This document shows, in pieces, positions 11,891 through 30,030 of a stretch of 64,000 nt of DNA (its first letter is position 1; every line of letters begins with the position of its first letter). The position numbers were made by a program, and so were the translations under genes. Location: NCBI RefSeq assembly GCF_008710285.1, contig NZ_VYQF01000003.1:62001-126000 (forward strand). The letters are read 5' to 3'. The notes under the pieces are model-generated. The model made no database searches and was not told where the DNA came from. It saw nothing but the letters and a program-made list of their open reading frames with translations. Source of the DNA: Ginsengibacter hankyongi. Its GTDB lineage: Bacteria > Bacteroidota > Bacteroidia > Chitinophagales > Chitinophagaceae.

Positions 11891-14800
11891 ATGAGGTTAT
11901 TTATATTCATCTCCGCTCTTGTTATGAGCAGCTTATTCGCTACCGCCCAAACAGGAGTTTCCGTACTTACCCAGCACAATGATATTAATCGCACCGGCTG
12001 GAACAATAAAGAAACTATCTTAAATCCTGCCAACGTTAGTTCCGGTAATTTTGGCCGCATCGGCACATTTAACGTGGATGACGAGGTATATGCCCAACCG
12101 CTGGTCGTTAATAACATTACGGTAGGCAATCATACCGGCAGCGTGTTATATACGGCCACTGTAAATAACACCGTGTATGCTTTTGACGCAGACGATGTAA
12201 CTGACACGGCGTATTTATGGAAGGTAAGTTTAAATCCATCCGGCCAGCGGGCGCCCAATACTGCTGACCTAAAAGATGCGCAATGGGGAACACCTTGTGC
12301 GGGTAATTACCTCGATTTCTCAGGAAGGATTGGTATTGTTGGAACGCCGGTAATTGATACCGTCACCAATACATTATATGTTGCCGCCAAAACTATTGAC
12401 GCTAATGGAAATTTTTATGCATACCTGAATGCTTTGGATTTAAAAACGGGTCAGCAAAAAACAGGCAGCCCTCATTTAATTTCAGCCCAAGTGAATGGCA
12501 CCGGCGCCGGAAGCGTAAATGGTAAGGTAGCCTTCCAGGCTAAATTTCAAAATCAACGGCCGGGCCTGCTTTTGTATAATAACGTGGTATATGTAGCCTT
12601 CGCCTCACATTGCGATTGGGGTCCCTATCACGGGTGGGTTTTAGGCTTTGACGCAGGCACACTGAATTTCAAGTATGCCTACAATACAACCCCTGATGCA
12701 AGATTGGGGGGCATCTGGATGTCTGGACAAGGTATAACGGTTGGGCCGGATGGAAATCTTTATGTAACCACCGGGAATGGTGTTACCACACCTGATAATA
12801 CGATAACAGGAAGCAGAAGTTCCAGCATGATAAAACTTTCGCCTCAACTAACACAGCTTGATTGGTTTACGCCGGCGAATTATGCTTACCTGGACTCCAC
12901 AGACGGGGATTATGGAAGTGACGGGGTATTAATAATTCCCAATTCCAGCACTACGGTTTCAGGATCAAAAGAAGGTATTTCTTATGTGATTGACTATAAC
13001 AACATGGGTCGTTTCGATTCCCTGAACAGGCAGGTAAAAGATACACTCATCTGGAACCCAAACACATTTGGGGATATTCATGTCCATGGTTCACCGGTGT
13101 ATGCACAGTTAAACGGGAAAGAATTTGTATATGGGTGGGCAGAAAGCTCTAATCTTCATCAGTTTAGTTATGACAGAAACACTGGAACATTCCTGAATGC
13201 TTACAAACAGGGAAACAGGACGCTTGATAACGGGATGCCGGGTGCTATGTTGTCTTTATCATCTAACGGAGCGGATACTTCTTCGGGAATTGTCTGGGCT
13301 TGTTTCCCTACGTCAGGAGATGCTAACCACCAGGTGAGGCCTGGAAGTTTTGCAGCATACAAAGCGAATGATGTTTCGGCAGGTGAATTATGGAATAGCG
13401 ATCAAAACCCTAATGATGTTATAGGGTACTTTGCAAAATTTAACCCGCCTACAGTTGCTAACGGGAAGGTATATGTGCCTACTTTCTCCAAAGCGATAAA
13501 AGTATATGGCATACTTCCGCCGGATACATCAAGGTGCGTTAATAACGGAACAGGCCTCAAAGCCGAATATTTTTCAAACACAGCTCCTACAGATCCTTTT
13601 CCGGCTACTGCTACAATTACAACAACAACTCCCACCATCAATTTTAACTGGGGAACCGGTGGCCCGCCCGGAATCAGTACCGATTTTTTCAAAGCAAGGT
13701 TTACCGGTACTGTACAAAGTATTGATGCAGGAACCTATACCTTCTATGTTACTTCAGATGACGGCTTTAGATTATGGATAAACAACCAGTTAGTGATAGA
13801 TAAATGGATTGACAAATCAGCGTCAGAAGACAGTGCAACCATTACTTTATCCAAATGCACAAAAAATTTTATAAAGCTTGAGTATTACGAAAATCAGTAT
13901 GATGCCGTTTGTATCCTGAAATGGAAGGGGCCGGGTATAATAAAGCAGGTGATCCCAGCTGTACTATTATATCCACCGGACACGACGGTACAATGCATAA
14001 GTAACGGCACAGGCCTGTTAGCTGAATATTTTTCCAACACAGCATCTACAGCGCCTTTTCCCGCTACCCCTACGGTTACAAAAACAGAACCCACCATCAA
14101 TTTCAGCTGGGGAACCGGCGGCCCGCCGGGAATAAGCGTTGACTCCTTTAAAGCGAGGTTTTCCGGTGCTGTACAAAGTCTCGACGCAGGCACCTACACC
14201 TTTTATGTAACCTCAGACGATGGTTACAGGCTTTGGGTAAATAACCAGTTGGTACTTGACCGGTGGTTCGACAAATCGCCGTCGGAAGACAGCGTAAACG
14301 TTCCCTTAGCCGGGTGCACGAAAAACTCCATAAAGCTGGAGTATTATGAAAACCTATATGACGCCACGTGTATACTAAAATGGAGCGGGCCGGGCATATT
14401 AAAACAGGTGATCCCGGCTATTCAATTATACCCGGTGGATTCCACAAAATGCACCAGCAACGGAACCGGCCTGCTGGCCCAATATTATTCAAACACGGCA
14501 CCCACAGATCCTTTCCCTGCGACTGCTACGGTTACAAAAACAGAACCGACCATTAATTTTAACTGGGGCACGGGCGGGCCCCCGGGCATCAGTATCGATT
14601 TTTTCAAGGCAAGATTTACCGGTACTGTACAAACGATTACCACCGGTACTTACACCTTCTATGTTACTTCAGATGACGGCTTTAGATTATGGATAAACAA
14701 CCAGTTAGTAATAGATAAATGGATAGACAAATCCGCCTCTGAAGACAGTGTAAGCATTCCCCTGCCCGGGTGCACCAAGAATGTTATAAAGCTTGAGTAT

Positions 14801-16396
14801 TATGAAAACCAGTATGATGCCGTTTGCATTCTGAAATGGAGCGGGCCAGGCATTGCGAAGCAGGTGATTCCGGCTATTCAGTTATATCCTGCAGATACAA
14901 CAATTGCCTGTGGGGACCCGGCAGGGTTACAATCGGGCAGCATAACTACAACCAGTGCTGTTGTTAGCTGGACTGCGGTTTCTAATGCAACCAGCTATAG
15001 TGTGGATTTTAAATTAGATTCTTCCAATACCTGGATAAACGCTGCCAGTGCCACTATTGCCACTTCCGTTACCTTAAGCAGTCTGCAGGCCGGCAGCCTG
15101 TATGACTGGCGCGTGGAAGCAACCTGCTCCGGTGGTACCGGTAATTATATTGCGGCGCAATTCACGACCTTGCCGCAAAGCACCTGCAATGCCCCCTCAA
15201 ATTTAAGTTCGTCTTCCATTACTGGCAGCAGTGCAACAGTAAGCTGGGGGGCAGTTAGTGGCGCATTAAGTTATAATGTAGATTATTCTTTGTCGGGTCA
15301 AAATTCATGGACGTCTGGTGCATCTGCCACCACTTTAACGTCAGTAACCATTGCGGGTTTAAATTCTTCAACCACTTATGATTGGAGAGTTAGATCCAAC
15401 TGTAGCAGCACGTCTAGCAGCGGGTATACTACAGCTTCATTCACAACTTTGGCTTCGGCTACCTGCAATGCACCAGCAAGCTTAAATACTACTTCCATTA
15501 CAAGCAGTGGTGCAACAGTAAGCTGGGGGGCAGTTAGTGGTGCATTAAGTTATGACATGCAATATGGCACTTCCGGCTCTGGCCCATGGACAACCGTGAA
15601 TACCACTTCAACATCAGTGAATATTACGGGCTTAAGTGCCTCTGCCATTTATTACTGGCAGGTGAGAACCAATTGTTCTTCCGGAAGCAGCGCCTATACA
15701 AATGCTTTGCAATTCACTACAAGTGCTGCGGGCTGTACGGACGCGTTGGAGCCCAATAATACCTTGGCCACTGCACAATCGATTTCTATTGGAGCAAATG
15801 TAAACGCAGAGATTGCTTCGTCTACCGATGTAGATTATTACGTTTTCACCACAAGCGGAAGTCAGAAAAATGTCAAGGTAAACCTAACCAATCTTCCGGC
15901 AAATTATAACCTGGCATTATACAATAGTAAAGGAAATCAGTTGGCAACTTCCACCAATGGAGGCACCTCGGGTGAAACACTGGTCTACAATAATAATAAA
16001 GCGGGTACCTATTACGTGAAAGTATATGGCGCCACTTCAAGTGATTACAGTTCCACACAATGCTATTCGCTGCAGGTATTAACCGGCAACACCGCTTTTA
16101 CAGCTACTGTTGCAGGAATTATCGATAACACAACTATTTCCAATGCAGGCCTGAGGCTCTATCCTGTTCCTGCTTCGTCAGACATCACGATTTCCTTTGA
16201 TGCAGCTGCCGCAGGAAAAGCAATAGTGACGATCATCAATCAATTGGGACAAGAGGTATATCGCCGGCAGGTAGACATCACCAGCGGTAATAACACGAAT
16301 AACATCAACCTCAGCAAACTTGTATCCGGCGTATATATGCTGAAATTGCAAACAACGGAAAGTATTCAATCCCGCAAGTTGATAATTAGTAAATAG
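11891..16396 (+). CDS. Giant secreted T9SS protein: beta-propeller, three PA14, three fibronectin III, PPC
   Basis: 1501 residues. A signal peptide (1-20) is followed by a quinoprotein-like beta-propeller region to about 540 with repeated LYTATVNNTVYAFDADD-type blades. Three PA14 domains start near residues 547, 702 and 854, each opening with C-x-NGTGL-AEYFSNTA and holding DDGFRLWINNQLVIDKW; PA14 domains commonly bind glycans. Fibronectin III modules start near 1007, 1099 and 1192, a pre-peptidase C-terminal (PPC) domain near 1283 (DALEPNNTLATAQSI), and the last 80 residues (LRLYPVPASSDITISF...GVYMLKLQT...SRKLIISK) are a type A sorting domain for the type IX secretion system. It is therefore exported and attached to the cell surface, probably as a glycan-binding adhesin or enzyme. 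No catalytic motif was recognised. A terminator follows at 16415-16446. Confidence 0.88.
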   Translation: MRLFIFISALVMSSLFATAQTGVSVLTQHNDINRTGWNNKETILNPANVSSGNFGRIGTFNVDDEVYAQPLVVNNITVGNHTGSVLYTATVNNTVYAFDADDVTDTAYLWKVSLNPSGQRAPNTADLKDAQWGTPCAGNYLDFSGRIGIVGTPVIDTVTNTLYVAAKTIDANGNFYAYLNALDLKTGQQKTGSPHLISAQVNGTGAGSVNGKVAFQAKFQNQRPGLLLYNNVVYVAFASHCDWGPYHGWVLGFDAGTLNFKYAYNTTPDARLGGIWMSGQGITVGPDGNLYVTTGNGVTTPDNTITGSRSSSMIKLSPQLTQLDWFTPANYAYLDSTDGDYGSDGVLIIPNSSTTVSGSKEGISYVIDYNNMGRFDSLNRQVKDTLIWNPNTFGDIHVHGSPVYAQLNGKEFVYGWAESSNLHQFSYDRNTGTFLNAYKQGNRTLDNGMPGAMLSLSSNGADTSSGIVWACFPTSGDANHQVRPGSFAAYKANDVSAGELWNSDQNPNDVIGYFAKFNPPTVANGKVYVPTFSKAIKVYGILPPDTSRCVNNGTGLKAEYFSNTAPTDPFPATATITTTTPTINFNWGTGGPPGISTDFFKARFTGTVQSIDAGTYTFYVTSDDGFRLWINNQLVIDKWIDKSASEDSATITLSKCTKNFIKLEYYENQYDAVCILKWKGPGIIKQVIPAVLLYPPDTTVQCISNGTGLLAEYFSNTASTAPFPATPTVTKTEPTINFSWGTGGPPGISVDSFKARFSGAVQSLDAGTYTFYVTSDDGYRLWVNNQLVLDRWFDKSPSEDSVNVPLAGCTKNSIKLEYYENLYDATCILKWSGPGILKQVIPAIQLYPVDSTKCTSNGTGLLAQYYSNTAPTDPFPATATVTKTEPTINFNWGTGGPPGISIDFFKARFTGTVQTITTGTYTFYVTSDDGFRLWINNQLVIDKWIDKSASEDSVSIPLPGCTKNVIKLEYYENQYDAVCILKWSGPGIAKQVIPAIQLYPADTTIACGDPAGLQSGSITTTSAVVSWTAVSNATSYSVDFKLDSSNTWINAASATIATSVTLSSLQAGSLYDWRVEATCSGGTGNYIAAQFTTLPQSTCNAPSNLSSSSITGSSATVSWGAVSGALSYNVDYSLSGQNSWTSGASATTLTSVTIAGLNSSTTYDWRVRSNCSSTSSSGYTTASFTTLASATCNAPASLNTTSITSSGATVSWGAVSGALSYDMQYGTSGSGPWTTVNTTSTSVNITGLSASAIYYWQVRTNCSSGSSAYTNALQFTTSAAGCTDALEPNNTLATAQSISIGANVNAEIASSTDVDYYVFTTSGSQKNVKVNLTNLPANYNLALYNSKGNQLATSTNGGTSGETLVYNNNKAGTYYVKVYGATSSDYSSTQCYSLQVLTGNTAFTATVAGIIDNTTISNAGLRLYPVPASSDITISFDAAAAGKAIVTIINQLGQEVYRRQVDITSGNNTNNINLSKLVSGVYMLKLQTTESIQSRKLIISK
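13533..14905 (+). repeat. Three tandem PA14-coding units of about 456 bases
   Basis: Units start near 13533, 13995 and 14451. Units 1 and 3 share long near-identical DNA stretches (for example about 13738-13815 and 14650-14728), while unit 2 differs at many silent sites. Confidence 0.8.
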
Positions 16397-20928: not shown

Positions 20929-23900
20929 TTATTTTTTATATAACCACACTCTCATAAGCGACATGAGCTGATCAATTTTTAAAGGCTTAGTTATATAATC
21001 AGAGGCCCCGGCTTCCAGGCATTTTTCTCGGTCGCCCTTCATGGCTTTTGCCGTTACGGCAATAATGGGAAGAGAGCTGTTTTTATGTTCTCTTCTTATT
21101 TTTTGGGTCGTTTCGTAACCATCCATTTCGGGCATCATAATATCCATCAGTACAATATCTATCTCTTTATTTTCACCAAGGATGTCCATGGCTTCCTTAC
21201 CGCTTTCGGCTGTAATAGTATTTATGTTGAAACGTTCAAAAGCGGTGGTAAGTGCAAACAGGTTACGTACATCATCATCTACCACTAATACATTTTTATT
21301 GGTTAACACATCTTTCTTGGAACGCAGGTCTTCAATCATTTTTCTTTTTTCGGGAAGGAGGTCTTTGTGATCGATGTGTAACAGCATGATCGTTTCTTCC
21401 AATAAAAGATCGAGAGAATTTACATCTTTCAATAAAATCCTGTTGGCATATTGTTTCAGCTTTGTTCGTTCTTTGGCAGAAAAATCTTTAGCGGAATAAA
21501 TTATTACCGGCGTCATTTCCATCTTTTTAAGCGCACTGATTTCTGTAACTAATTCCAGTCCCGAAATATCAGGCAACATAAAATCAACAATCAGGCAATC
21601 GTATAGATTACTTTTTATAAGCTCCAGCGCTTTTTTTCCTGAATTGACAATTTCAATTTCCAGCAGGTCGCCATTATCTAAAATTTTGGCAGCCTGCGAA
21701 GAATCCAGTTCGTTATCTTCAATTAATAATAGCCTCTTAGGCTTGCGGCTGTTAAACTCCACGATATCTGCAAAGAGCACGGTAAGCTCTTCGGTTTTTA
21801 ATGGCTTCAGGTGAAAGCTTCTTGCGCCACGCTGCATCGCGAGCAGGCGGTTTTCCTCGCCCGAGATCAGGTGAACAGGAATATGCCTGAAATTAATATC
21901 ATTCTTAAAGAGATCAAGAATACGCCACCCGCTGGCATCCGGTAATTTCACATCGAGTGTAACTGCTATTGGCGTAAACTTATTAGCCAGCTCAAACACA
22001 TCGCCAAAACTGGCAGCCACCACTACTTTTAAGTCCATCTCGTGCGCCTTTTCTATGGTGATCCTGGCAAACCTCACATCATCTTCCACCACCAACACTA
22101 CTTTGTCTGTGCTGAGGATATTATTTCTGTCGTCGCCGATTTCATTGATTATTTCATTGAGCACATTCAGGTCTTTAGTCTCCGCTACCTTAATGGTGGG
22201 CACCGATTGAATGGCTACTTCACCGGCAGCTTCTTCCAACTGGTATTCACTAACGGTGAGGCTTGTGTGCTTTTCTTTACGGGTTACTGCGGCGTCATAT
22301 TCAATAGGTAAAAAGAGAGTAAAGGTGCTTCCTATACCGGTCTGGCTCTCCAGTTCTATTGTTCCGCCCAGGAGTTCGGCAAGCCCGCGGCTGATGGATA
22401 AGCCGAGACCGGTTCCTCCATACTTACGGCTGGTAGATCCTTCTGCCTGCTGGAAAGCTTCGAAAATAATATTCTGCTTGTCTCTTGAGATTCCGATACC
22501 GGTATCTTTGATCTCGAATGCGACCACCTTACGGGCATTGTCCAGGCTTTCATTGCTTTGTTTCCAGTTGTGGCTGGCTTCATAGATCCTTAATCTTACC
22601 TCGCCTTTTTCGGTGAATTTAAAAGAATTGGAAAGCAGGTTTTTGAGGATCTGGTTAAGCCTTTGGGCATCGGTTTCCATGCTGGCAGGCAATCTTTCAT
22701 CCATTTCAATAGTAAAGCGCAGGTTTTTGCTTTCAGATATATGTTTGAAGGTTGTTTCTACAAATGCTGTAATGGCGCTGAACCTGAGGCTTACAAAATC
22801 AGTGGAGATATAACCGGATTCGATCTTGGAAAGATCCAGGATGTCGTTGATAAGCTGGATGAGGTCGTCGCCGCAACTATGAATGGTTTTGGCATAACGA
22901 ACCTGCTTTTCATTTAGGTTACCTTCATGATTTTCATATAATTGCTGCGCCAGTATCAATAAGGAGTTTAAGGGAGTGCGCAGTTCATGCGACATGTTTG
23001 CCAAAAATTCGGATTTATACTTGGAGGTTAGCTGCAACTGCTCGGCCTTATCTTCCAGTGATCTTCTTGCTTCTTCCACTTCCTTGTTCTTGGCTTCCAC
23101 TTCTTCTTTTTGCTTGATCATTAATTGCGCCCTGTCTTCCAGTTCCTCATTGGTTCTTCTCAATTCTTCAGCCAAAGATTGCGACTGCTCCAAAAGCCCC
23201 TCAGTACGGGAGTTGGCTTCAATCGTATTAAGCACAATCCCGATACTTTCCGTTAGCTGGCTTAAGAAATCCAGGTGCGTTTCACTGAATGTATCGAAGG
23301 AAGCCAGCTCAATAACGGCTTTAATTTGTGTTTCAAATAAAACGGGAAGTACGATTAAATTCACCGGGGAAGCTTTACCCAGGCCGGAGCTGATCTTCAC
23401 ATAATTTTTAGGAACATTGGTTAACAATATTCTTTCTTTTTCCACGGCGCACTGCCCTACCAGGCCTTCGCCCAATTTAAATTCTTTGGCCGTTTTTACT
23501 TCATCGCCAAAAGCATAGGCAGCAAATAATTTCAGCTTTTGATGTTCAGTAATCTCATTTTGCTCCAGTATATAAAACATCCCTTTCTGGGCATTCACTA
23601 CCTGGGCTAGCTCAGAAAGAATGCGGCGGGTTACCGTGTTCAAATCTTTCTGGCCTTGCAGCATTTGGGTAAACTTCGCAAGGTTCGATTTAAGCCAGTC
23701 CTGTTCCTGGTTTCTTAGCGTGGTTTTTTTCAGGTTAATGATCATCTGGTTGATGGTATCTTTCAACTCTTCTACCTCTCCCTTTGCCTCCACCCTAATC
23801 ATCTGCGTTAGGTCTCCTTTTGTTACTGATGATGCCACTTCCGAAATGGCACGCACCTGTGTAGTCAGATTTTCCGCCAACTGGTTTACGTTTTCTGTAA

Positions 23901-26900
23901 GATTTTTCCAGATACCTGATGCGCCAGGCACGCTTGCCTGTCCACCTAAACGGCCCTCCACTCCCACCTCGCGGGCAACCGTGGTTACCTGGTCTGCAAA
24001 TACCGCCAGCGTGTCAATCATTTCGTTTATGGTATCCGTTAGTTGAGCTACCTCGCCCTGTGAAACAATAGATAATTTTTGTTTCAGGTTCCCGGTAGCA
24101 ACGGCTGTCACCACTTTGGCAATTCCCCGAACCTGGTTGGTAAGATTGGAAGCCATCATGTTCACTGAGTCTGTAAGGTCTTTCCACGTACCAGCAACCC
24201 CCTGGACTTCTGACTGGCCGCCCAGCTTTCCTTCCGTGCCAACTTCCCTTGCCACGCGGGTTACCTCGTAGGCAAATGAATTGAGCTGATCCACCATGGT
24301 GTTGATGGTATTTTTCAAATCGAAAATTTCTCCCTGTACGTCGATGGTTACCTTTTTGGAAAGATCGCCGGAGGCAACGGCCTTGGTTACTTCGGCAATA
24401 TTGCGCACCTGTGATGTAAGGTTACCCGTCATTTGGTTTACCGAGTCGGTAAGGTCTTTCCATGTTCCCGCAACACCCGGTACAAATGCCTGTCCGCCCA
24501 GCTTTCCATCAGTACCCACCTCTCTCGCCACACGGGTTACTTCAGATGCAAATGCACGCAACTGATCCACCATGGTATTCAATGTTTCTTTCAATTGCAA
24601 GATTTCTCCACGAACATCCACCGTAATTTTTCTCGACATATCACCATTAGCAACTGCAATAGCAACGTCGGCGATATTCCTTACCTGTGCCGTTAAGTTA
24701 CCAGCCATTTGGTTTACGGAGTCAGTAAGATCCTTCCATGTTCCTGCAACACCCGGTACGTTTGCCTGTCCGCCCAGTTTACCTTCGGTGCCCACTTCTC
24801 TTGCCACACGGGTAACTTCAGAAGCAAATGCGCGAAGCTGTTCCACCATGGTGTTGATCGTATTTTTTAATTCAAGGATCTCTCCTTTTACATCCACTTC
24901 AATTTTACGGGAAAGGTCACCGTTGGCCACTGCAGTGGTAACTTCTGCAATATTTCTTACCTGCGAGGTAAGGTTAGATGCCATCTTATTTACCGAATCC
25001 GTTAAATCTTTCCAAAGACCTTCCACACCGGGCACATCGGCCTGGCCGCCCAGCTTCCCTTCACTGCCTACTTCCCTTGCCACACGAAACACCTCAGAAC
25101 CGAATGAGTTGAGCTGGTCCACCATGGTATTGATGGTATTCTTTAATTCAAGAATTTCCCCTTTTACATCCACAGTAATTTTCCTAGATAAGTCGCCCTT
25201 GGCAACAGCGGTGGTAACCTCTGCAATATTTCTTACCTGGGCCGTAAGGTTGGACCCCATCTGGTTTACTGATTCAGTCAGGTCTTTCCAAGTGCCCCCC
25301 ACCCCTTTTACTTTTGCCTGCCCACCCAGTTTTCCTTCCGTACCAACTTCAAGCGCCACACGGGTTACCTCAGATGCAAAAGAGTTTAACTGATCCACCA
25401 TCGTATTGATCGTTTTCTTCAATTCCAATATTTCTCCCGCCACATCCACGGTGATCTTTTTAGATAAGTCGCCGTTGGCAACAGCCGTTGTTACTTCAGC
25501 AATATTTCTTACCTGTGCCGTGAGATTGGATCCCATCTGGTTTACGGAATCAGTAAGGTCTTTCCACGTGCCACCGACACCCTGCACTTTTGCCTGGCCG
25601 CCGAGTTTACCTTCGGTACCCACCTCCAAAGCAACCCTTGTAACCTCAGATGCAAAAGAGTTCAACTGATCCACCATGGTATTGATGGTATTTTTTAATT
25701 CAAGAATTTCACCCTGCACATCCACGGTAATTTTCCTGGACAGGTCACCTTTAGCAACTGCAGTAGTTACATCAGCAATGTTACGAACCTGCGCCGTCAG
25801 ATTTGATCCCATTTGATTCACCGACTCCGTTAAGTCTTTCCAAACACCCCCTACGCCTTTCACTGTTGCCTGACCGCCAAGTTTTCCTTCAGATCCCACT
25901 TCCCTTGCCACACGGGTAACTTCAGCAGAAAATGAATTTAGCTGGTCCACCATGGTATTGATGGTATTTTTTAGTTCGAGAATTTCTCCCTTTACATCCA
26001 CGGTTATTTTACGGGACAAGTCTCCCCTTGCAACAGCCGTGGTTACTTCCGCAATGTTGCGCACCTGGCCGGTAAGGTTAGATGCCATCTGGTTTACAGA
26101 ATCTGTAAGATCTTTCCAGGTTCCTGCAACACCTTTTACTTCTGCCTGGCCACCGAGTTTTCCGTCAGTACCCACTTCTCTTGCCACGCGGGTTACCTCA
26201 GATGAAAATGAATTCAACTGATCCACCATGGTGTTGATCGTATCTTTTAATTCAAGAATTTCCCCCTGCACGTCTACCGTAATTTTCTTGGATAGATCAC
26301 CCTTTGCAACCGCTGTTGTTACTTCAGCAATGTTACGCACCTGGCCGGTAAGGTTCCCTGCCATTTGGTTTACGGAATCCGTAAGATCTTTCCACACACC
26401 GGCAACACCTTTTACTTTCGCCTGTCCGCCAAGGATACCTTCTGATCCTACTTCTCTGGCCACACGCGTTACCTCCATAGAAAACAAATTGAGCTGCTTC
26501 ACCATATCATTTACTTCTTTGGCAATTCTTCCAAACTCACCTTGTAAGAGATGGTCGCCGATTTGCAGCGGCATTTCCTGCGAAAGATTTCCTTTGGCAA
26601 CGGAACTAATTACATGTGCAATTTCAATAGTAGGATGCACAAGGTCTGATATCAGGTTATTAATAGAATCTACGCCCGTGCTCCATGAGCCTCTTGCAAC
26701 CCGGGGCAGTTCTACCCTATGATTGAGTTTTCCCTCCTTGCCAATGGTATTACGGGCCAGGGTAAGTTCCCTGAATAATATTTCATTGAGTGAAATTATT
26801 TCGTTGAGCGTATCACAGATTTTTCCATTTAAGCCCACGCCATCTATGGGCATGCGCACGGTAAAATCCCCATTCTTCACCTGGTTTAAAACCTCCAGCA

Positions 26901-27060
26901 ACAAATGGTTGTCTAAGTGGTCTTCCAACAGAAAAGTACCGGATCTCTGTTTAGCCTTACCGTTAGTTTTTTTCAACGCAACTGTCGTACCAGGGGTATT
27001 ACCGGGTGATATCAGGTGAGCAGCAACAGGTTTTACTGAACCGTTAGTGTTCTTCTTCAT
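20929..27060 (-). CDS. Giant poly-HAMP hybrid histidine kinase with GAF and three receivers
   Basis: 2043 residues. After a short polar N-terminus comes a long array of HAMP units: ten near-identical 92-residue repeats from about 205 to 1125 (each with [46 protein letters not shown] and [19 protein letters not shown]), preceded by two diverged units. Then a GAF domain (about 1125-1285), a coiled coil, HisKA with His1358 in [14 protein letters not shown], HATPase_c (about 1440-1585), and three receivers starting near 1653, 1773 and 1925. The layout resembles fungal group III (Nik1/Hik1) and bacterial poly-HAMP kinases used in osmotic or stress sensing, but those usually have about five to nine units. 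No transmembrane helix is visible. A TAGGTTTG promoter element lies 30 bases before the start codon. Confidence 0.95.
23685..26448 (-). repeat. Ten tandem 276-base HAMP-coding repeats
   Basis: In-frame tandem array inside the giant kinase, with period 276 bases (92 codons). The central six or seven units are nearly identical in protein sequence, while the last two ([16 protein letters not shown] and [16 protein letters not shown]) are diverged. The array also creates long artefactual open frames on the opposite strand. Confidence 0.9.
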
Positions 27061-27208: not shown

Positions 27209-27634
27209 ATGAAAGAACAACATGCCGGGATTTCGCCGGTAACAAGTCCCTCAAAATTCATACTCCTTGGTGAAGACGACATAGACGACCAGGAAATACT
27301 CGAAGAAGTTTTTCTTAAAGCAGATGCGTCGCTTCAGTTGCAGTTTTTTAATAATGGCAGAAAGGTAATCTCGCACCTGGAAACCCCCGGTGATCATCTT
27401 CCCTGCCTTATCGTACTGGATTACAACATGCCCGAGTTGAACGGGGCCGACATTTTGAAAATATTATCATTTGATAAGCGCCTTGAAGCCATCCCGAAAA
27501 TAATCTGGAGCACTTCTGATGCACCGGTTTACCGGAGCCTGTGTTTCGGATACGGTGCAACCGATTACCTGGTAAAGCCTTCGAAGATCAGTGCACTGGA
27601 AGATATGGTAAAATACATGCTGTCGCTTTGCTGA
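27209..27634 (+). CDS. Single-domain response regulator
   Basis: 141 residues forming only a receiver domain. KFILLGEDDIDDQEILEEVF carries the acidic pair, Asp71 in CLIVLDYNMPEL is the phospho-acceptor, WSTSD supplies the Ser/Thr switch and YLVKPSK the conserved Lys. The overall pattern (EDD-DD at strand 1, long loop, NMPELNG) resembles Rcp1-like regulators that pair with phytochrome or PAS kinases. No output domain, so it probably shuttles phosphate between kinases or acts by protein contact. It is divergent from the giant kinase and lies 74 bases ahead of the next kinase on the same strand. Confidence 0.92.
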   Translation: MKEQHAGISPVTSPSKFILLGEDDIDDQEILEEVFLKADASLQLQFFNNGRKVISHLETPGDHLPCLIVLDYNMPELNGADILKILSFDKRLEAIPKIIWSTSDAPVYRSLCFGYGATDYLVKPSKISALEDMVKYMLSLC

Positions 27635-27708
27635 ACACGGCTTACTAATCTATGCTAACCTGATAATATTTTTATTATAACATTGATAACACTGTAAAAA
27701 TAAAATAG

Positions 27709-28512
27709 ATGAAACCGCCGGAAATGTTATACCAGGAAAGGATTAACCAGGTAGAAACCGAATTGGTACATGCCCGCAGCCTAATCAATTATTACAAAAA
27801 AGCGCATGAGGATTTTATTATGATAGCTTCACACGACCTGCAGGCGCCACTGAGAAAACTGTCAACATTTGTGGAGCGATTGGTTTATAAGTTCCAGGAA
27901 GTAAAGGGCGATGAAGTTAATAACTATGTAGAGCGTATTCAGTCAACGCTTGCCGGCATGCGCAAAATGATAGACGGCCTTTCTGTTCTTACTTACACTT
28001 CAGAAGCAAGCCCGGGTTTCGCGAAATGCAGCCTGGACGAAATATTGCAACAGGTCTTAACAGACTTTGCATCTTTATTCGCAGAGGCTAACACAACCAT
28101 TGAGTGCACTGCATTGCCGGTGATTGACGGGAACGCTGTGGAGCTAAAAAGTTTATTTGAAAATATTATACTCAACGCCGTTAAATTTCAGCACAAAGAC
28201 GTTGGTTCAAAAATACAGATTACCACTATGCCGGTAAGCGATGCAGAACGGAACAAATTTAGCTTTGACGCAGCCAGCAGCTACCATAAAATTGTAGTTA
28301 CAGACAATGGCGTTGGATTTGACGACCAATACTCCGACAAAATATTTGATCCATTCATACGTTTGCACGGTAAGTCAGATTTTGAGGGTAACGGATTCGG
28401 CCTCGCTTTATGTAAAAAAATTATTGAAAAACACCACGGCTTCATTTATGCAAAATCCAATAAAAATTCGGGCAGTAGTTTCATACTATTTTTTCCAGAG
28501 ACACATAATTAA
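27709..28512 (+). CDS. Soluble histidine kinase lacking a sensor domain
   Basis: 267 residues. It begins with a short coiled coil and goes straight into HisKA with His42 (ASHDLQAPLRKLSTFVERL) and a HATPase_c domain (N-box LFENIILNAVKFQHKD, DNGVGF, G-box GNGFGLALCKKIIEKHHG). The phospho-His region and ATPase region closely resemble those of the REC-kinase at 19663-20922 (ASHDLQEPLRKI; GSGVGLSICKKIVDKHNG), suggesting they are paralogues. It has no receiver, membrane helix or recognised sensor, so the input must come from a partner, possibly the receiver just upstream. The next gene starts three bases after its stop. Confidence 0.9.
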   Translation: MKPPEMLYQERINQVETELVHARSLINYYKKAHEDFIMIASHDLQAPLRKLSTFVERLVYKFQEVKGDEVNNYVERIQSTLAGMRKMIDGLSVLTYTSEASPGFAKCSLDEILQQVLTDFASLFAEANTTIECTALPVIDGNAVELKSLFENIILNAVKFQHKDVGSKIQITTMPVSDAERNKFSFDAASSYHKIVVTDNGVGFDDQYSDKIFDPFIRLHGKSDFEGNGFGLALCKKIIEKHHGFIYAKSNKNSGSSFILFFPETHN

Positions 28513-28515
28513 TAT

Positions 28516-30030
28516 ATGCTAACATCCAAGAGAATAAAGATACTAGTGGTTGACGATGACGAAGATGATTATTTTATAATTTCAGATTACATAAATGAAA
28601 TTGATAAAAATAAATTTGTTATTGATTGGTGTAATAGTTATCAATCCGCTGTTGAAAAATTCAAAGCAAAGGCATACGATATTTATTTTGTTGACTACCG
28701 GCTTGGAAACGAAACCGGCCTAGAACTGCTGAAGGAAGCCGTTAACCTGGAATGTGAAGACCCGATTATTCTACTAACCGGAAAAGGTAATAAAGTAATT
28801 GACATAGAAGCCATGAAAAGTGGCGCCACCGATTATCTCATTAAATCGGAATTAAATGCGGAAAAACTGGAGCGTTGCATGCGATACTCACTCGACCGCG
28901 CTGCCTACTTAAAAACGATAAGGGAAAGTGAGAAGCGGTTGAAAACTTTTTTCCGGAATGGACCTAATGCTATAATTGTTATAAATGAGGATGAAGAAAT
29001 ATTAGAATGGAACCCGCAGGCAGAAGTTATTTTTGGATTCACGGAGGCGGAAGTTCATGGCAAATTGTTATCGGAAACTATCATACCCCTGCAATATCGC
29101 CAGGCACATAAAAAAGGAATGACCCGTTTTTTGGGAACCGGTGTGGGGCCCTTTCTTAATAAAACGATCGAGGTAACGGCACTACATAAAAACGGCCATG
29201 AATTTTATGTGAGTATGAGCATCTCTAATGTGAAGATCCAGAGTGACTGGCTGTTCATTGCTTTTCTTTCGGACATTACTGAAAGAAAAAGAACCGAAGA
29301 CGCATTGATACATAAAGAAGCGGAATTGTTACAGGCACGCTTGCTGGAAGAAAAGAAAAATGAATTTCTTTCCATCGCCAGTCATGAATTAAAAACGCCA
29401 TTAACCACATTGAAAGCTTACGCAAGTATGGCCCTTGCCTTCAGTGAACATCAGGGCCCGGACATGATGCGGGATTATCTTTTTAAAATAGATCAGTACT
29501 GTAATAAGCTAACTTTCCTGATTAATGAATTGCTCGACGTATCAAAAATTCACGCCGGACGATTAATACTCAACCACACCGAAGTGGATACGGACCAGTT
29601 TCTCCCGGATGTCCTTAATTCAATGCAACAAATTACACAAACGCACCGGATAGTTTTAGAGCAGAATCACCCTGCAAAAGTTCACATGGACCCTCTTCGG
29701 CTCGAACAGGTAATTACCAACATAATAGGTAATGCGGCAAAGTATTCGCCGGGCCAGGAAAAGATTATCGTAAACTCCGTAAGAAACTGTGATGAAATCG
29801 TTATGTCTTTCAGGGATTTTGGAATAGGCATCCCCGAAGAGAAACTGGAAAAAATATTTGACCGCTTTTACAGGGTAGATGAAGAATCCAATAAATTCAG
29901 CGGCCTTGGAATTGGATTATTTGTGTCTTCAGAAATCGTAAAACAACACGGCGGAAAAATATGGGCCACTGTTAACGATGATGGTGGAAGTACATTTTAT
30001 TTTACATTGCCCGCAGTGGATCGAAATTAA
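28516..30030 (+). CDS. REC-PAS-histidine kinase
   Basis: 504 residues. N-terminal receiver (about 5-125; KILVVDDDEDDYF, Asp60 in YFVDYRLGNE), then a PAS domain (about 140-260; FFRNGPNAIIVINEDEEILEWNPQAEVIFGFTEAEVHGK), a short coiled coil, HisKA with His290 (SIASHELKTPLTTLKAY) and HATPase_c (N-box ITNIIGNAAKYSPGQ, G-box GLGIGLFVSSEIVKQHGG). Soluble. It follows the sensor-less kinase by three bases, so both are in one operon with the receiver at 27209. The PAS domain may bind a small ligand or cofactor, not identifiable here. Confidence 0.93.
   Translation: MLTSKRIKILVVDDDEDDYFIISDYINEIDKNKFVIDWCNSYQSAVEKFKAKAYDIYFVDYRLGNETGLELLKEAVNLECEDPIILLTGKGNKVIDIEAMKSGATDYLIKSELNAEKLERCMRYSLDRAAYLKTIRESEKRLKTFFRNGPNAIIVINEDEEILEWNPQAEVIFGFTEAEVHGKLLSETIIPLQYRQAHKKGMTRFLGTGVGPFLNKTIEVTALHKNGHEFYVSMSISNVKIQSDWLFIAFLSDITERKRTEDALIHKEAELLQARLLEEKKNEFLSIASHELKTPLTTLKAYASMALAFSEHQGPDMMRDYLFKIDQYCNKLTFLINELLDVSKIHAGRLILNHTEVDTDQFLPDVLNSMQQITQTHRIVLEQNHPAKVHMDPLRLEQVITNIIGNAAKYSPGQEKIIVNSVRNCDEIVMSFRDFGIGIPEEKLEKIFDRFYRVDEESNKFSGLGIGLFVSSEIVKQHGGKIWATVNDDGGSTFYFTLPAVDRN

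Follow-up and report, generated by a model that had tools for sequence, protein, structure and literature searches.

The window (the whole stretch of 64,000 nucleotides of Ginsengibacter hankyongi DNA that was analyzed) carries on its reverse strand, at 20929..27060, a gene that begins with an ATG start codon and encodes P0001, a poly-HAMP hybrid histidine kinase of 2043 residues. From the N-terminus P0001 comprises a HAMP pair, ten 92-residue HAMP pairs, a single HAMP, a GAF domain, HisKA, HATPase and three receivers; the open reading frame and Pfam thus uphold the domain content and length given in an earlier note on this DNA. Pfam assigns HAMP to 10 stretches (5.4e-106) and HAMP_2 to 11 (7.5e-98), together with one match each to GAF_2, HisKA and HATPase_c and three stretches of Response_reg; NCBIfam gave no family above its cut-off among the best 25 matches listed. 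Pfam matches to SpoIIID, GatB and HTH_6 were set aside as cross-hits of the helical repeats. A scan for promoters and terminators performed near chance.

The repeats were evident to Tandem Repeats Finder as 8.4 copies with a period of 276 bp (24152-26475), and the array as a whole was delimited by setting the sequence out in rows of 92 residues and with a unit HMM. The first HAMP-pair unit (residues 149-240; 26341..26616) shares 49-54% identity with the central units; eight near-identical 92-residue HAMP-pair units follow (residues 241-976; 24133..26340; TRF, Pfam and unit HMM), which are 74-92% identical to each other in amino acids and 68-81% in DNA, confirming the high identity reported earlier. 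The tenth unit (residues 977-1068; 23857..24132) is diverged, with 54-58% identity to the central ones, and the array ends in a final single HAMP, or half unit (residues 1069-1112; 23725..23856; unit HMM). A variable tail (residues 1-46; 26923..27060) and an N-terminal cap (residues 47-148; 26617..26922) precede it. The cap is probably a diverged HAMP pair: residues 57-148 stand out as a diverged stretch in the 92-residue rows, the unit HMM matches the corresponding region in many relatives (P0001's own cap is not called), homology to PDB 9trk and 9trj starts at residue 48, and the AlphaFold helix pattern agrees. The AlphaFold model itself (cap plus two units) is of low confidence, with a mean pLDDT of 64.7, and gives weak support at most; in a Foldseek search of this weak model against the PDB the best match was the Aer2 poly-HAMP, at an E of 0.098, and this and the matches to further HAMPs all lie below significance. 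Of the ten units plus two diverged ones claimed before, the ten stand, while the second of the diverged ones amounts to a lone HAMP and so to half a unit. Eleven pairs plus one, with the N-terminal pair putative, would give 23 HAMP-like modules.

The C-terminal part consists of the GAF domain (residues 1138-1277; 23230..23649; Pfam GAF_2, 5e-17), HisKA (residues 1349-1416; 22813..23016) with phospho-acceptor His1358, HATPase_c (residues 1464-1586; 22303..22671) and three receiver domains at about residues 1655-1768, 1777-1895 and 1924-2035 (20956..22098; Pfam limits for the third, limits read off the sequence for the first two). Candidate receiver phospho-acceptors are Asp1703, Asp1826 (read off the sequence) and Asp1973. 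As the earlier note had it, no membrane segment is indicated by a simple hydropathy scan, because the highest 19-residue value (1.63, at residue 1235) falls within GAF. GAF also stands as the only ordinary sensor domain: GAF_2 is present in all 45 C-terminal parts of relatives that were scanned, and the N-terminal tails are mostly short, with at most 15 residues ahead of the cap in 34 of 47 rows from outside Bacteroidota (first Met taken as start). An N-terminal sensor domain would therefore not be required, leaving GAF, the array or partners as candidates for the site of input.

Directly downstream on the same strand lies the partner gene P0002 (19663..20922), whose start is 6 bases past the P0001 stop codon and which encodes a receiver-HisKA-HATPase kinase of 419 aa (Pfam). 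On the other side, on the forward strand, is the divergent gene of P0003, a single-domain response regulator (27209..27634; Pfam), and a P0003-like divergent neighbor adjoins many ten-unit relatives. P0003 is part of a divergent cluster (27209-30030, forward strand) comprising the single response regulator, a HisKA-HATPase kinase and a receiver-PAS-kinase. Elsewhere in the window, at 11891-16396 on the forward strand, a predicted protein of 1501 residues has a signal-like start, followed by what we take to be about three long PA14-type-like repeats and then fibronectin-like repeats.

P0001 resembles the fungal group III kinases (Nik1, CaNik1p, TcsC, Hik1) in its 92-residue HAMP pairs with a single last HAMP and in its HisKA-HATPase-REC order, so that the kinship to Nik1/Hik1-type kinases proposed from the sequence is borne out. 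The fungal kinases have one receiver and, to our knowledge, no GAF, and those of the Nik1 type act through HPt to the HOG pathway in the response to fludioxonil or ambruticin. They are described as lacking transmembrane regions (PMC7643160, in excerpt). CaNik1p, with four 92-residue pairs and one HAMP, or nine HAMPs (PMC3848655, in excerpt), has fewer units than P0001; the view that known poly-HAMP kinases usually have fewer units is right for this fungal protein, at 4.5 units, and wrong for bacteria, in which 6-14 were found. CaNik1p from which all HAMPs had been deleted stopped growth of its yeast host, and changing the phospho-acceptor histidine restored growth (same source and extent).

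Also among the closest known systems are Myxococcus xanthus AskA (MXAN_0712) and AskB (MXAN_6735) and Sorangium Amb07, which are described as group III-like with an extended poly-HAMP region (PMC7643160, in excerpt). Like them P0001 would be a soluble hybrid kinase with a long poly-HAMP N-terminus and several receivers, and partial matches to SpoIIID-like and HTH_6 profiles, as reported along the HAMPs of AskA and AskB (PMC7643160, in excerpt), recur over its own; they belong to another phylum, and the likeness is one of description, not of residue-level unit counts. P0001 has the features of AskA/AskB-type proteins, namely a tandem HAMP array (frequently more than five), no indicated transmembrane segment, and HisKA-HATPase with several receivers, and by sequence it is a further member of the known bacterial AskA/AskB (Nik1/group III-like) poly-HAMP hybrid kinases. 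A structural counterpart is at hand in PDB 9trk and 9trj ('histidine kinase,Gcn4p'), with which P0001 residues 48-330 align at 376 and 205.5 bits, respectively; both are fragments of another protein, and residues 48-329 of 9trk correspond to P0001 48-330, i.e., to the cap plus first two units. A literature search for a paper on these two entries found none. Pseudomonas Aer2, a chemoreceptor with PAS and methyl-accepting domains that lacks a kinase domain and in this differs from P0001, has a three-unit HAMP structure. The two share concatenated HAMPs in a soluble protein (PMC3570549, in excerpt).

Comparison of the arrays of 94 complete proteins shows a strict geometry. The unit spacing is 92 in 908 cases; of 68 spacings of 97, 65 reflect a 5-residue difference in the first unit and 3 lie between cap and first unit, five spacings of 91, 93 or 99 all occur at the first pair of hits, and a single spacing of 57 corresponds to undetermined bases within a draft contig. 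Once past the first unit, all spacings up to the final half are exactly 92 in 93 of the 94 proteins, the exception being that gap, and the last element of every array is a half unit whose match ends at HMM position 43-47 (95/95). Array length changes only in whole 92-residue, that is two-HAMP, steps. There is about an even chance that these steps reflect nothing beyond recombination among the repeats and that odd HAMP numbers are not under selection, since in-register recombination yields gain or loss of 276 bp whatever the function and the observed differences in count are whole units; this account leaves unexplained that units past the first contain no indel at all, even of one residue, and that the count is stable along the tree. 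Because in-register recombination supplies a neutral reason, selection for odd HAMP numbers is not claimed.

The number of units was taken with the unit HMM as full units between cap and final half in complete proteins (94 rows); L098, which has a broken frame, was excluded from the count test and the spacing table, and L141, L149 and L151 were excluded as duplicates. Six units occur in 13 proteins, seven in 1, eight in 1, nine in 14, ten in 22, eleven in 24, twelve in 16, thirteen in 2 and fourteen in 1, where the single seven (L212) is an undercount from a broken frame that was left in, and the counts of L102 and L193 were set by hand to 11 and 9 (5-residue first-unit offset). Within the bacterial family of P0001 the range is 6 to 12. 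In a quick tree of the GAF-HisKA-HATPase part (95 rows, with L184 and its gap of unknown bases kept as 9), P0001 falls in a group of 21 rows (SH-aLRT 82), all of which have ten units, and its unit count, formerly taken to be unusual, is thus the common one of its clade, an outcome that the earlier note had itself named as evidence against its view. On the tree of 94 labelled rows the count changes 18 times, versus 51-64 in 200 shuffles.

This stability bears on the suggestion that the array expanded recently and is still in flux, altering the length of the rod in the P0001 lineage. The mutual identity of the central units (74-92%) and the variation of counts between genera are what such an expansion would leave, and the poly-HAMP tract is reported to differ in length between MXAN_6735 and LILAB_12790, orthologues from one genus (PMC4603909, in excerpt). 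The orthologues of P0001 tell another story. When its nine exact 92-mers were compared with those of 16 ten-unit orthologues (L082 and L083, with only eight exact 92-mers picked in each, being left out), the unit at the same position was strictly the best match in 137 of 144 comparisons, or 141 with ties included, and it exceeded any other unit of P0001 itself in 141 of 144. Unit by unit, identity to the orthologues averages 93-99%, and the 21-row clade is uniform in count. In the codons of conserved array residues only 41-50% of third positions are shared (18 orthologues), which indicates that the units of P0001 and of its orthologues have long been apart. Recent expansion is therefore very improbable; since units resemble the orthologous unit at their own position more than they resemble their neighbors in the same protein, the ten-unit array is, judged from these comparisons, an old and stable trait of the clade. 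Duplication during assembly, an alternative allowed for earlier, is likewise very unlikely as the source of the P0001 array, because the DNA of the central units is 19-32% divergent and ten units are also found in four single-contig genomes (G023, G139, G147, G173).

Where counts differ within the family (20 proteins), an order-keeping alignment always finds partners for the first unit and for the last five; in L102 the additional row at the start is the cap. Gains and losses fall mid-array, with their placement among the near-identical middle units approximate; in the two six-unit proteins, P0001 units 2 to 5 are without a partner. Since the count changes fall mid-array, a rod of changing length between genera is possible.

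Relatives are widely but unevenly distributed. Poly-HAMP matches were found in 49 of 195 genomes of the bacterial family of P0001 and, at a stricter cut-off, in 12 of 395 genomes of a phylum-wide draw; among 19 genomes of the same genus a full-length-type match is present in 3 (G003, G008 and G005, the last on a short contig), many of those without one being incomplete assemblies. The gene is patchy, and even close relatives do not all have it. When named genomes were scanned with an alignment of cap plus first unit, at least 578 stretches were confirmed, the best 80 loci of which were considered and lie, by record titles, in Bacteroidota, Acidobacteriota, Cyanobacteriota, Pseudomonadota and Myxococcota, and also in Verrucomicrobia, Gemmatimonadales and Elusimicrobia. 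Myxococcus qinghaiensis (L191) and Polyangium (L179, L182) share 56-57% identity in the cap-unit alignment and could be placed in the tree, which points to common descent of the P0001 cap and units with those of the myxobacterial members. At six loci (L078, L090, L098, L144, L187, L212) the poly-HAMP gene is split into at least two frames within or near the array, and this may be either real decay or sequencing error.

The array is also distinguished by its conservation. Measured against 18 ten-unit orthologues, the units average 96% identity and HisKA 97%, whereas the mean is 79% in HATPase, 74% in the cap, 67-88% in the receivers and 16% in the tail. Across 279 units of non-Bacteroidota origin, a single residue makes up at least 90% of the entries in 70 of the 92 columns, among them 30 of the 47 polar columns; across 385 units of the bacterial family itself only 45 of 92 columns reach this level, because units there differ by position. 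A membrane-bound HAMP kinase from the same genome served as a control: in 10 orthologues its HAMP and HATPase are about equally conserved (0.54 vs 0.49). The orthologues of this control have all diverged much further, which restricts the comparison to the ratio of one domain to another, and a single control family lends little weight to a general contrast. By these measures conservation of the array is exceptional, on a par with HisKA and far above HATPase.

Near-complete fixation of residues is what would be expected if the array served mainly as a scaffold of lattice type or as a polyvalent surface that binds a partner protein, DNA or the array itself, rather than as a simple relay. The contrast between units and HATPase, with the drift at third positions of the conserved codons, the conserved polar columns outside Bacteroidota and the even conservation of the control kinase would all fit, and there are precedents in AskB, which binds a promoter in vitro (PMC7643160, in excerpt), and in the di-HAMP receptor FrzCD, which assembles on the nucleoid (PMC12077210, in excerpt). 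However, DNA binding by FrzCD resides in a basic N-terminal tail, and a conserved tail of that kind was rejected for the present family, in which the net charge of the tail ranges from about -7 to +14 and a KKTNGK-type motif, present in P0001, was seen in just 3 of 115 rows (for L162 and L167 the tail was cut wrongly and takes in cap sequence). HisKA is as highly conserved as the units, the column counts within the family are the lower ones given above, and tight two-state packing could equally yield high conservation. A scaffold role is regarded as rather unlikely.

The gene downstream of the poly-HAMP kinase is likewise recurrent. Within the family, all 42 of the 42 loci have a P0002 homologue within 400 bp downstream and on the same strand (the poly-HAMP frame being broken at three of these loci), and an HMM of P0002 relatives detects a neighbor of this type at 21 of 22 further non-duplicate Bacteroidota loci for which downstream DNA is available, the miss being L166; Pfam was run on four of these further loci, and L160 has an extra PAS and a second receiver. 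Among 34 loci from outside Bacteroidota with downstream DNA, a receiver-first kinase comes next in 9 (8 by Pfam, L182 by HMM only), a CheR homologue in 14 (by BLAST) and neither in 11. Pfam upheld CheR in the four CheR-like frames that were scanned (L186, L191, L192, L215), and CheB is also found downstream in L171, L191 and L192. The CheR-like genes occur in cyanobacteria, Acidobacteriota, Myxococcus and Oxalobacteraceae-type genomes (e.g., L171, L189, L191, L192, L186, L215), and 10 of the 14 loci belong to Massilia, Duganella, Rugamonas or Pseudoduganella, so that the independent cases are few. No CheR was found by similarity among the open reading frames of the window. The one CheR match in the genome (L231, G000:C1:495666-496217) lies on a contig other than that of the window, in a frame of 1209 residues that is perhaps a CheB/CheR-type fusion.

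In M. xanthus, askC lies directly downstream of askB and encodes a hybrid histidine kinase with a receiver domain; AskA and AskB bind AskC in vitro, and a two-hybrid test showed an interaction between the receiver of AskC and Rec3 of AskA (PMC7643160, in excerpt). The P0001-P0002 pair resembles askB-askC in that a gene for a receiver-bearing kinase follows directly, and from its position and the shared receiver P0002 may be a counterpart of AskC. RsbM methylates the kinase RsbK, and a genomic link between RsbK and CheR has been reported (PMC12848376, in excerpt). With AskC and RsbM as precedents, control of poly-HAMP kinases by the products of partner genes is plausible.

Taken together, these results make it highly probable that P0001 is a cytosolic AskA/AskB-like kinase with an old array, which as a dimeric HAMP rod would govern the passage of phosphate to the receivers and P0002. 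Published work on HAMP domains leads one to expect such an array to form a dimeric chain, each module of which can adopt either of two conformations and switch between them (PMC3570549, in excerpt). By this analogy P0001 is probably a parallel homodimer, and its 23 HAMP-like modules, of two alternating kinds, would stack into a single unbroken rod. A signal received by the rod, the cap, GAF or a bound partner would alter the HAMP conformers; these would set autophosphorylation of His1358, so that the array would hold or release the kinase, and phosphate from His1358 would then pass to the three receivers and to the downstream receiver-kinase P0002. A bolder proposal is that poly-HAMP kinases are soluble chemoreceptor-like sensors, in which the array itself senses and adapts, with a fixed proximal block of five pairs, a middle of adjustable length, an odd number of HAMPs that keeps the polarity of the output, and tuning by partner genes (a receiver-kinase in Bacteroidota; CheR with or without CheB in cyanobacteria, Acidobacteriota, Myxococcus and Oxalobacteraceae). 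It is a speculative reading and is considered improbable; if true, it would parallel the methylation of the kinase RsbK by RsbM.

P0001 itself is an ordinary member of its family, and it is the side results, namely the whole-pair steps, the conservation contrast and the receiver-kinase and CheR neighbors, that deserve a look; in the literature covered, which was partial, nothing was found on a unit-step rule, on the conservation contrast or on a CheR neighbor of bacterial poly-HAMP kinases. The recurrent downstream neighbors are candidate partners of these kinases. Clear predictions for deletions of single versus paired modules follow from the strict 92-residue step, from the lone HAMP that closes every array examined, from the invariant proximal block and from the exceptional conservation, and the way in which long HAMP chains carry, filter or sense signals matters both for the fungal targets of fungicides and for bacterial kinases.
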